Of a stretch of DNA of 64,000 nucleotides, positions 39,911 through 64,000 are shown piece by piece. Where the stretch lies: assembly GCA_035935655.1 (NCBI GenBank), contig DASYWW010000039.1, forward strand, positions 1-64,000, read 5' to 3'. The first letter of the stretch is position 1. Each line of letters opens with the position of its first letter. The position numbers were made by a program, and so were the translations under genes. Source of the DNA: Candidatus Bathyarchaeia archaeon (GTDB lineage Archaea > Thermoproteota > Bathyarchaeia > 40CM-2-53-6). The notes beneath the pieces were generated by a model. That model worked only from the letters and a program-made list of their open reading frames with translations, was not told where the DNA came from and ran no database searches.

Positions 39911-40069
39911 GTCTAATTCCTTACAGCTGGTGGACGAAAGGGCTTATTCTTTTCGCTCGACCCGAGCTTTGGTTTTCTCTGGCAGAAAGTAGACCCAGAG
40001 ATAAATGACCCTAAGGGACGGGCTAGAATGTCTGAACCGTACACCTGTGATCTTCCTCGAATAGCCAGA

Positions 40070-40536: not shown

Positions 40537-40795
40537 AGTCTGCGGGGACTACCACTCTCGCGTCTCGAGGGTCGCTCGCTAGTACCCCCCTTTTTGATCG
40601 GAAGATTTCCTGTCTGGCAGTGATTCTGGGCGAGATGGGTGGTTTGGGGTGTGATTCGGGCTTGGATGGAAACCTGTTTGCTGGAGTTATCCGGATATTC
40701 CCGAACGATTTTCGGGGGAGAGTTTGGGGATGCATCAGACTCGAGATCAGGGCTGAAAATGGGCGATTTCTTGGGTCTCGTCGTGACTGGTAGCT
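40537..40795. repeat. dispersed non-coding element, copy A
   Basis: About 250 bases with clear similarity to 47941-48185. Shared blocks in the same order include ccactct.gcg.ctc.agggtcg.tcgct, cccccta/ccccccttttt, atttcctgtctgg, gattctgggcgag, ggcttggat, ttcc(c)gaacga.ttt and gatca.ggctga...aggcgatt. Overlapping frames differ between copies and contain stops in copy B, so it is probably not coding. It may be a non-coding RNA or a remnant of a non-autonomous repeat. The 357-base region 40440-40796 holds nothing else recognisable. Confidence 0.65.
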
Positions 40796-46523: not shown

Positions 46524-46653
46524 GTCTACCTGACCAGCATTATTGAGTGTCGCTGAGCCTAGTTATAACTTGTCAGATGTTTAATCTGGAGTGGCAAGAC
46601 GCTTGTCACCCTAACATTATAATTCGCTCAGAAGAACTCGACATTTGAACGGT

Positions 46654-47847
46654 ATGAGAAAATTCCAGGTGGCAACTGATGACGAGATCAAGAATGCGGA
46701 GACAACGGACGTTTACTTTACGCGGACAAAGGAGATTCTGGAAAGCGAGGGACTCTCCGAGCTTAGAGTAACTGCAGAAATCACGACGGGCTCTCTTCCA
46801 AGGAATTGGGAGTGGGGCATACTTGCTGGAGTGGAGGAAGCAGCCCATCTCTTGGAAGATGTACCCATCGATGTTCACTCTTTCCCGGAAGGAACCCTGT
46901 TTCATTCGAGTGATGTAGAAGGTGTACGAGAGCCCGTTATGTTGCTTGAAGGCCGATACTTGGATTTCTGTCTCTATGAGACTCCGTTACTCGGACTTCT
47001 CTGCCAAGCATCTGGGATAACGACCATGGCGGCCCGCGTGAGGAGAGCCGCTGGCAGGAAAACTCTTCTCTCCTTCGGAATTCGCAGAGCTCATCCAGCT
47101 CTCGCCCCGATGATCGATAGGTCATGCTACGTTGGCGGGTTCGATGAGGTCTCAAGCATTGTCGGCGCAAGGCTTCTTGGAAAGGACCCTGCTGGAACGA
47201 TGCCTCACTCGCTGATAATTGCCATCGGAGACCCGGTTAGGGCTTGGAAGAGCTTCAACAAACACATGCCGAAGAAGGTACCGAGAATAGCGCTGGTCGA
47301 CACGTATTACGACGAGAAAACGGAATCTATCCTGGCTGCGGAAGCTCTAGGTAAGGATCTCTACGGGGTCCGGTTGGATACGCCTAGCTCGAGAAGAGGC
47401 AATTTCGCTGAGATTGTTCGAGAGGTAAGATGGGAGCTGGACTCAAGGGGATTTGATCATGTGAAGATTTTTGTCTCGGGCGGACTCAATGATGAAACGG
47501 TCGCTGATCTATCCCTCGCTGGAGCTGACGGATTTGGAGTTGGAACCTCAGTCAGCAACGCACCTAGCATCGACTTCGCACTGGATATCGTGGAAGCTGA
47601 CGGGAAATCCGTGGCGAAAAGAGGCAAGTTGGGTGGGAAGAAAATGGTCTGGAGATGCGATGATTGTCTGATAGAGAAGGTAACAAGCGCGACTGCGACT
47701 GAGCCCGAATGTCCTAATTGCGGAGGGAAGACAGGCAGGTTGCCTGTGCCGCTTCTTTCGAACGGGCGATTATCGAAGACGCTTCCGTCTGCCGATAAGA
47801 TTCGCGAAAGAGTTCTTGGTCAGCTCATGCGTCTTAGCGCTTCCTAG
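46654..47847 (+). CDS. pncB: nicotinate phosphoribosyltransferase
   Basis: It forms nicotinate mononucleotide from nicotinate and PRPP in NAD salvage. Motifs include TTDVYFTRTKEIL at the start, SFGIRRAHPALAPMIDRSCYVGGFDEVS, VDTYYDEK, GVRLDTPSSRRGN and VSGGLNDETVADLSLAGADGFGVGTSVS. A zinc ribbon near the C-terminus (CDDC and CPNCGG) is typical of the archaeal form. The start is ATG at 46654 or TTG at 46645. NAD kinase elsewhere in the window acts in the same cofactor pathway. Confidence 0.93.
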   Translation: MRKFQVATDDEIKNAETTDVYFTRTKEILESEGLSELRVTAEITTGSLPRNWEWGILAGVEEAAHLLEDVPIDVHSFPEGTLFHSSDVEGVREPVMLLEGRYLDFCLYETPLLGLLCQASGITTMAARVRRAAGRKTLLSFGIRRAHPALAPMIDRSCYVGGFDEVSSIVGARLLGKDPAGTMPHSLIIAIGDPVRAWKSFNKHMPKKVPRIALVDTYYDEKTESILAAEALGKDLYGVRLDTPSSRRGNFAEIVREVRWELDSRGFDHVKIFVSGGLNDETVADLSLAGADGFGVGTSVSNAPSIDFALDIVEADGKSVAKRGKLGGKKMVWRCDDCLIEKVTSATATEPECPNCGGKTGRLPVPLLSNGRLSKTLPSADKIRERVLGQLMRLSAS

Positions 47848-47940: not shown

Positions 47941-48185
47941 CTTTCCTGCGGGTCTCAGAGAGCCACTCTTGCGACTCAAGGGTCGGTCGCTACGACCCCC
48001 TATTTTCCAAAACCATTTCCTGTCTGGTTCTGATTCTGGGCGAGTCTGCCCGTTCAGGGCACAATTCTAGGCTTGGATAGGCTTGGAAAGTAGCGGACAA
48101 TTCCGAACGAATTTCCGACATTTGACCCGAGGCTTGCCAGAATCGCGATCACGGCTGATTTTAGGCGATTCTTGCTCCGATCCCT
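47941..48185. repeat. dispersed non-coding element, copy B
   Basis: Counterpart of 40537-40795, with the same ordered blocks, roughly 60-65 percent alike by eye. It fills most of the 365-base gap between pncB and the PLP enzyme gene. Frames across it are broken by stops. Best-conserved parts are atttcctgtctgg...gattctgggcgag and the 3' block from gatcacggctga to aggcgattcttg. No terminal inverted repeats or target duplications are seen. Confidence 0.65.
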
Positions 48186-48212: not shown

Positions 48213-49187
48213 ATGCTCGACGGATTCATGATCCACGGCCGTTTGCCAGCGTTAGAGGACATTGTCGCGGCCAGTAGGCGAATCGAAGGAGTAGCAACCA
48301 AGACTCCGCTGGTGGAGTCGCCATCGCTCTCGAAGAGATTCGGCCGCCTCGTCTACTTGAAGCTCGAATGCTTCCAGCCCATACGGGTCTTCAAGATTCG
48401 AGGGGCTTACAACAAGATCTCCCAACTGTCATCCAAGAACATCATCGCGGTTTCTTCCGGGAATCATGGAATGGCGGTAGCATACAGTTCTCGGCTCCTT
48501 GGAAAGAAATGTACCGTAATACTGCCCGAGACAGCGGTCCAGGAGAAAGTCAACACTATCATCGAGCACGGTGCCGAGGCAATCAAGTATGGAAAATACA
48601 CGACCGATCGTGATGCGAAGGCCAAGGAAATCGTCGGCAAGACCGGAGCGACACTCGTCCACCCATTCAACGACCCTGACATAATCGCTGGTCAAGGAAC
48701 CTGTGGGCTAGAGATAGCGAATCAACTTGTCGACTTCGACTCGGTAATAGTTCCAGTTGGAGGAGGAGGCCTCATCTCCGGCATATCCATCGCGATCAAA
48801 TCGCTGAGGCCAGAAGCGAGAGTCTACGGGGTCGAACCGGAGAACGCACCGAAACTCCAAGCAGCACTAAAGGCTGGCAAGATTGTCACTTTAGACTCGC
48901 CAAAATCAATCGCGGACGGGCTTATCCCATCAGCGATAGGAGAGCTAACCCTTGAAGCATGCAGGAAGCACGTCGACGGCGTTTACACTGTTTCAGACGA
49001 CGAGATCCTTGCAGCAATGAAGCTGTTAATTCGTGATGCCCACATTTTCCCAGAACCCTCTGGAGCCGCGCCCGCCGCTGTCCTCCTCGCTAATCGGGAT
49101 TTGGAGAAACTTGGTGAGAAAGTGGTGCTAGTAATATCGGGTGGCAACGTGTCATTGGATCTTCTTGCCAAGACGATTACTGGATGA
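48213..49187 (+). CDS. PLP-dependent threonine dehydratase / serine racemase family enzyme
   Basis: A fold-type II PLP enzyme of 324 residues. The PLP lysine is Lys61 in FKIRGAYNK. The substrate loop is SSGNHGMAVAYSS, the phosphate-binding glycine loop GGGGLISG, and the C-terminal SGGNVS. There is no C-terminal ACT regulatory domain, so it resembles the catabolic or racemase type rather than allosteric IlvA. The start is ATG at 48213 or at 48228 (MIHGRLPALEDI). Confidence 0.9.
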   Translation: MLDGFMIHGRLPALEDIVAASRRIEGVATKTPLVESPSLSKRFGRLVYLKLECFQPIRVFKIRGAYNKISQLSSKNIIAVSSGNHGMAVAYSSRLLGKKCTVILPETAVQEKVNTIIEHGAEAIKYGKYTTDRDAKAKEIVGKTGATLVHPFNDPDIIAGQGTCGLEIANQLVDFDSVIVPVGGGGLISGISIAIKSLRPEARVYGVEPENAPKLQAALKAGKIVTLDSPKSIADGLIPSAIGELTLEACRKHVDGVYTVSDDEILAAMKLLIRDAHIFPEPSGAAPAAVLLANRDLEKLGEKVVLVISGGNVSLDLLAKTITG

Positions 49188-62914: not shown

Positions 62915-64000
62915 TCATTCCAGGTAGATTGCCGGCCTGTACGGTTCCGACATCCTAGCCCGTCCCTTAGGGTCATTTATCTTTGGATCTCCCTCCTGCC
63001 AGACGTCGATCGCGCACTTGAATTCTCGCCGATAGAAATCCGCTGAATCAGCAAAGATACTATTCTCCGCAACGATACCATCTTCCAAGCGTGACCGTCG
63101 CATCTCGTTGGGCATCTGGTTTGCCTGTTGAATCGCTTTGCCAGCATAGTCTGCAGCCGCCTTTCCTAGAGATCGAAGCTGAGGATCTGCCATGACTTCC
63201 TTGATGAAGTCGCTTTGTCTCTTCTTCTCTTCTGCAGCCTTCAATGCTTTGAGGAGGACCTGCCACTTCCAATCAGTCGCCGTGTAGTATGCGATTCGCT
63301 TCGGGGTGATGCCTGTGGCCTTCAGAATCTCGCCCGTATCATCCAGCACATCTCTTATGAGTGCTTCCGCTCGTTCCGCCGAGGGATCCTTCTGATTCTC
63401 GTTTTCTTCAGGCCAGTCTGCCTGAACAACGAATCCCGTGTTTCCAATACGGCTCCACATCTCCTCCGCAGTATGCGGAGCTAGCGGGGCAAGCATTCTC
63501 GTTCTGGTCTCCAGAACCTTCCGTAGAACCCAGTCTCGATTGTCCGACCTCGACTTTTTTGGCCCCAGTCTTCTATTGTACCATGCAATATCGTTCTCAA
63601 GATGGTAGAGGATGACGTTGATTGTTTCTCTGACCCTCAGCCTATCCAGCGCATTCGTGGCCGCGTGAACTGCGTTGCTCAAGCGGCTGATCATCCACCG
63701 GTCTAGCGTGGAAGATCTCGATTTCCTAGCGGTTTTCTTCGATCCTAGTTTTCTCGACTGTCCTATCAGAGCTGCAAGTCTCTCTTGGAGAGATAGGGCA
63801 AGGGTTTCACTGAAGTCAGTGTCCTGGCCCAGTTCAGCCGTTACCATTACTCCCACACGGACTGGATCTGCTCCGAACTTGGCAATTCCCTGTCGGAGCG
63901 GGATAATGTTCTCGAGCGATTTCGACATCTTCGCGCCTTCCATCAGGACGAAACCGTTGGCGACAATTCCCTTCGGCCACTGTTTCTCAGGGAAGAGGGT
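62915..64000 (-). CDS. leuS: leucyl-tRNA synthetase, C-terminal part (runs off the window)
   Basis: The frame is open to the window edge and reads FPEKQWPKGIVANGFVLMEGAKMSKSLENIIPLRQGI. The KMSKS loop closes the class I catalytic core, followed by the anticodon-binding helical domain (APHTAEEMWSRIG) and the archaeal LeuRS C-terminal extension. About 362 residues are visible of a protein usually around 950. The catalytic HIGH part is beyond 64000. Confidence 0.93.
   Translation of the reverse strand, partial: TLFPEKQWPKGIVANGFVLMEGAKMSKSLENIIPLRQGIAKFGADPVRVGVMVTAELGQDTDFSETLALSLQERLAALIGQSRKLGSKKTARKSRSSTLDRWMISRLSNAVHAATNALDRLRVRETINVILYHLENDIAWYNRRLGPKKSRSDNRDWVLRKVLETRTRMLAPLAPHTAEEMWSRIGNTGFVVQADWPEENENQKDPSAERAEALIRDVLDDTGEILKATGITPKRIAYYTATDWKWQVLLKALKAAEEKKRQSDFIKEVMADPQLRSLGKAAADYAGKAIQQANQMPNEMRRSRLEDGIVAENSIFADSADFYRREFKCAIDVWQEGDPKINDPKGRARMSEPYRPAIYLE

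Follow-up and report, generated by a model that had tools for sequence, protein, structure and literature searches.

REP sequences and REPINs are short, extragenic and present in numbers from dozens to hundreds, with subtypes, tandem clusters and evidence of excision; their palindromic cores pair into hairpins and are linked to a Y1 (RAYT) transposase (PMC3116915). MITEs are small, non-coding, non-autonomous, multicopy and intergenic sequences, present or absent between relatives; terminal inverted repeats define them, and target-site duplications and a parent transposon usually go with these (PMC10969869). The enterobacterial RU-1, RU-2 and RU-3 repeats (ERIC-type) are 100-200-bp intergenic repeats described as small mobile sequences and likened to MITEs (PMC2759123).

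The element analyzed here is represented by two stretches, 40537-40795 (A) and 47941-48185 (B), of a window of 64,000 nucleotides from the genome of a soil Candidatus Bathyarchaeota (2.50 Mb, 65 contigs). The NAPRT-like gene beside B has 13 loci in named archaeal genomes, every one of them in a MAG of Bathyarchaeota or Crenarchaeota, for the most part from the soil BA_x and 13_1_40CM series. They are two copies of a dispersed repeat family of ~220 bp that behaves like REP, MITE and ERIC sequences yet lacks the terminal inverted repeats, palindromic core and Y1 transposase by which these are defined, and we have filed it as a novel variant of interspersed non-coding DNA repeats. As in REP and REPIN, its dispersed copies are extragenic (0 of 117 inside called genes, a statement that rests on simple homemade gene calls, with 68-82% of the DNA called coding), but it has no hairpin or palindromic core. 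The Y1 transposase (Y1_Tnp, PF01797) was found in none of the 21 genomes of the family, while the controls and three genomes of the order's other families were positive. With no hairpins and no Y1 transposase, mobilization of the IS200/RAYT kind was rejected. The likeness to MITEs lies in its being small, non-coding, multicopy, intergenic and present or absent between relatives, but the conservation is internal and 3' rather than terminal and symmetrical. Among the 25 inverted pairs listed, none of at least 20 nt had both arms in A or B, the ends of the consensus (CTCTTGCG and GGGCGATTT) are not complementary, and in the partial copies examined no gene, and hence no autonomous version of this kind, was found between the halves of the element. 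With the RU/ERIC repeats it shares the many intergenic copies across one family, but it carries three direct repeats at fixed spacing and no dyad. Iterons are ~20-bp direct repeats at fixed spacing that are bound by a replication initiator or a transposase and appear once per replicon or transposon end. Our element likewise has direct repeats set at fixed distances within a single DNA segment, but there are more than 50 such arrays per chromosome and no initiator was identified.

A dispersed family of intergenic repeats

Both stretches point the same way and can be aligned over their full length, and the near-identical runs atttcctgtctgg and gattctgggcgag singled out in the initial annotation are located at 40605-40634 in A and 48015-48044 in B. 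A blastn search of A against a 280-kb set from its own genome retrieved B at E=1.8e-16, far beyond chance. The annotation had described a paired element; the likeness of A and B holds, but they are not a pair, since the family has more than 50 copies in the genome. These are spread genome-wide, which rules out a local pairwise duplication. A alone gave 48 matches against the whole genome (best E=4e-43 excluding itself), and a profile built from 41 copies (R1) gave 61 at E<=0.01 (profile E-values being rough), of which ~52 are strong and several decayed. The idea of a miniature repeat family, also put forward in the annotation, is borne out by the 50 or more dispersed intergenic copies in this genome, and almost all genomes of the family contain dozens. 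A known transposon end and a coding family had been named beforehand as findings that would speak against the proposed element, and neither was found.

Anatomy of the unit

The unit falls into two length classes, 208-211 and 218-225 bp, and its information profile (92 copies, three species) has four conserved blocks. Their consensus sequences are CCACTCTTGCGTCGCGAG..TCGCTA.nACCCCCCTTTTT (block 1), ATTTCCTGTCTGGCAGTGATAATGGGCGAG...TTCAGGGC..AATCCGGGCTTGGATGG (block 2), TTCCCGAACGATTT (block 3) and CCAGATTCGAGATCAGGGCTGATAATGGGCGATTT (block 4). The two copies of the window are laid out as follows.

upstream from ~40526, plus strand: copy A, weakly conserved lead-in
40545..40775, plus strand: copy A, whole unit, 220-nt class (profile R1, rough E=1.5e-54, A itself being part of the profile)
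40551..40595, plus strand: copy A, block 1, ACCACTCTCGCGTCTCGAG...CGCTCGCTAGTACCCCCCTTTTT (information profile, 92 copies)
40605..40669, plus strand: copy A, block 2, with m1 (CTGTCTGGCAGTGATTCTGGGCGAG), kept in another genus, and m2 (TTTGGGGTGTGATTCGGGCTTGGATGG)
40697..40712, plus strand: copy A, block 3, ATTCCCGAACGATTTT (information profile)
40736..40769, plus strand: copy A, block 4 with m4, 3' end of the unit, CAGACTCGAGATCAGGGCTGAAAATGGGCGATTT; conservation stops just after
46645-47847: NAPRT-like gene, neighbor of copy B
47956..48175, plus strand: copy B, whole unit, 210-nt class (profile R1, rough E=4.1e-38, B itself being part of the profile)
47962..48006, plus strand: copy B, block 1
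48015..48081, plus strand: copy B, block 2 (m1 and m2)
48100..48114, plus strand: copy B, block 3, ATTCCGAACGAATTT
48138..48170, plus strand: copy B, block 4 with m4, 3' end of the unit
48213-49187: ilvA-like gene, neighbor of copy B

Three related direct repeats, m1, m2 and m4 (GGGC...TGGGCGA), lie in blocks 2 and 4. In each of them a GG(G)C word is followed by GGGC 11-13 bp later, and the three are kept across genera. The consensus sequences of genus g1 and of the genus of genome G027 are both 220 nt long and have m1, CAGGGC and m4 in common, while the remainder differs. In four genomes of two genera the distance from m1 to m4 is either 123-125 or 133-136 bp, with almost nothing intermediate. 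The two distances differ by roughly one turn of the helix, which hints at protein-DNA geometry; a single old 10-bp deletion could be the source of most of the split into two length classes. The 3' edge is sharp, with conservation stopping just past GGGCGATTT, and upstream the conservation fades into a weak lead-in (TCCGGG at -13, TTACTTTC near -28) that is present in part of the copies only. A divergent subtype (L040:7222-7561, L043:2935-3280, L161:2047-2088 and L162:2001-2028) shares the 3' block, has a body of the form GATCCC..GTG..TTCCCC..GGGATAaGCGTGGAA and is under-counted by the profile; these decayed or divergent copies belong to further subtypes.

Range of the element

Of the 21 genomes in the GTDB family, 20 carry the element by profile R1, each in 9-83 copies (lower bounds outside the window's own genome). 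The sole family genome without matches is 67% complete. None of the 230 other sampled genomes of the class carries the element by the same profile. A model made from the copies of G027 (genus g10, ~50 copies) recovered the same range within the order. A DNA search alone underestimates this range, as seen in five members of the genus that gave no DNA matches and 13-28 by profile. Three genomes labelled as the window's genus (G003, G002 and G007; L140, L141 and L142) have an NSUN protein only 52-54% identical to that of the window, comparable to the 55% of G027, which belongs to another genus; versions of the element are present in them with weaker scores. A viral or plasmid origin was also considered and set aside, since blastn of plasmid and phage records gave no match and neither did a single exact motif scan of the IMG/VR contigs. 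Literature searches turned up no description of the repeat; it is a previously undescribed repeat restricted to a single family of uncultured soil archaea.

Genomic placement and states of the sites

The orientation of the copies relative to the neighboring genes is unbiased, and a role as the promoter or terminator of a regulon was rejected for lack of bias toward gene ends or direction. Spacing along the contigs is random and the runs of orientation are not significant; neither regular spacing nor a bias with replication direction reached significance. The window also contains an inverted repeat of 66 nt (39978-40043 and 62938-63003, 23 kb apart, 89% complementary), by its position unrelated to the element.

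Many sites have the same neighbors on both sides in different species and contain one or two copies each. All the genomes are draft MAGs, in which contig ends, strain mixing or misassembly could create some of the single-site states; the main patterns recur across many genomes despite this. The context of site A (orf_up, a zinc-ribbon gene and the NSUN gene) is conserved in nine species. Six of them have a single copy (356-441 bp between the genes) and G012 has a double one (598 bp), while in G022 and G023 the site is empty, with 156-157 bp between the genes and the flanks joined cleanly. In the NSUN tree these two empty species are nested among filled ones, so that site A has undergone either loss or repeated gain. 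The empty sites could be deletions. The flanks of the empty and filled forms of site A are too diverged for a target-site repeat of 2-8 bp to be read. Site B is found in G005 with all four neighbors 81-98% alike. There is one copy at this site in L114, L115, L118 and L125 and two in L116; in L119 a 28-nt remnant of the 3' end is left, and L120 has no copy and a different sequence in its place.

Another shared place lies between a nusA-like KH gene and rpsL, within the gene order rpoA2-rpl30e-nusA-rpsL (L163:709-1935 and relatives). Here the element is in sense orientation in G005, G006 and G009 and antisense in the window's own genome, G012, G022, G023 and G004. Since conversion cannot invert a sequence, these flipped states need inversion or independent insertion. 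The adjacent gene product, uS12 (rpsL), contains an in-frame intein of ~500 aa in G004 (L178/L183), G021 (L179), G022 (L180/L184) and G025 (L181), with the junctions NSAVRK|CIAPNSQILLEDG ... HNFFANGFLTSN|CVRAQ and a match to the Pfam family Intein_splicing (PF14890, E=2.5e-9). The uS12 of the window genome, G005, G006, G009, G012 and G023 has no intein, and a limited search of the literature found no report of inteins in uS12.

Exchange of contents among shared sites

The four-fold sites of the neighbor genes are saturated between species of g1 (0.44-0.62), and the intergenic places that species with such saturated neutral DNA share include the interior of the nusA-rpsL operon. For the most part, copies at matching positions resemble each other no more than random copies do, and 37 of the 41 copies of the window's genome have their nearest relative within that genome. 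For example, the copies L010 and L016 are 0.91 identical to each other, and each is only 0.58-0.60 identical to its own positional counterpart in G005. Within G005, identity reaches 0.93-0.97 among four copies that occupy four loci. Their common tract starts at a conserved block (in tandem pairs, at the 3' block of the copy before), stops where block 4 ends and takes in no flank. Tracts bounded by conserved blocks and free of flanking sequence indicate that the copies overwrite each other through their conserved ends. The simplest reading of this overwriting is gene conversion; the alternative is precise replacement by reinsertion. In L042 the part between m1 and m4 has been lost, as expected of recombination between direct repeats.

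Origin and possible roles

We consider it probable that the family of A and B is an interspersed, non-autonomous DNA repeat of this soil Bathyarchaeia family, spread by insertion, homogenized, and provided with putative protein-binding blocks. The unit would have spread by inserting into intergenic DNA, and copies at separate sites would have been repeatedly overwritten by recombination via their conserved end blocks. Such overwriting may account both for the likeness of the copies within one genome and for the gain or removal of tandem second copies. From their conservation and spacing, we infer that the blocks, above all m1, m2 and m4, are candidate binding sites of a sequence-specific protein, which might be a host chromosomal protein or else the recombinase or transposase responsible for moving the element.

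That positions are conserved from species to species would be compatible, too, with an element that belongs to the host alone and has had no recent mobility. The copies might be chromosomal sites owned by the host (for nucleoid organization, segregation, replication or recombination, for example), that is, dozens of 220-bp arrays bound by a putative host protein, selected at fixed intergenic places and homogenized by gene conversion, with mobility only ancestral. Consistent with this are the family-wide presence in 9-83 copies, lost nowhere except in one incomplete genome, the block spacing kept across genera, the many positions common to several species and the absence of any link with the direction of neighboring genes. 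However, spacing along the contigs is random, runs of orientation are not significant, sites have been lost or flipped among related species and there is no candidate protein, and we regard this account as possible but rather unlikely. The same tentative standing applies to the idea of a family-specific system, in which 50 or more gene-converting sites per chromosome, each a fixed three-motif array, would serve a dedicated putative archaeal protein that organizes, segregates or recombines the chromosome.

Truncated and internally deleted copies do occur and gene conversion is evident, as would be expected if the copies were fossils left by a transposon that has died out, neutral today and alike through conversion only. 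This explanation is improbable, though, because the blocks and the total length are kept between genera, where conversion cannot act, while the rest differs; besides, neutral sites in this genus have reached saturation and retention within the family is near-universal.

As the initial annotation had noted, the frames are not preserved (no single frame is open in more than 7 of 44 copies), and a hidden protein was rejected on this ground; the 174-aa minus-strand ORF that covers copy A is not kept in other copies. The annotation had also suggested an unrecognized structured RNA, to be examined for compensatory changes. Rfam 15 at gathering cut-offs gave no match in the window. RNAalifold yielded a consensus energy near zero for 41 copies (-0.5 kcal/mol); within the window's own genus the plus strand gave no structure and the minus strand no more than four weak pairs. 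There were no compensatory pairs in these 41 copies, no covarying stacked helix was found in 92 copies, and the folding energy of single sequences equals that of shuffles (z ~0, both strands). With no covariation, an alifold energy near zero and a folding z of ~0, the structured-RNA idea fails. In the other genus alone there is a weak consensus fold (-9.5 versus -3.1 kcal/mol for shuffled columns), whose pairs, with few exceptions, are invariant or one-sided, and we place no weight on it. Multi-copy non-coding RNA genes with their own promoter and a largely unstructured product could draw on that fold, on the sharp 3' end at GGGCGATTT and on the weak lead-in at promoter-like distance upstream of CTCTTGCG, but the lead-in is confined to part of the copies and the lack of a covarying helix, of folding energy beyond that of shuffles and of an Rfam match makes them very improbable.

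Implications

The repeat is a ready genetic marker for its archaeal family. It also amounts to a natural experiment on how gene conversion works in archaea, with the same sites in many species and their contents exchanged. If a host protein binds the blocks, the arrays would point to a chromosome-level system new to science; if a recombinase binds them, they would point to a class of mobile elements without terminal inverted repeats.
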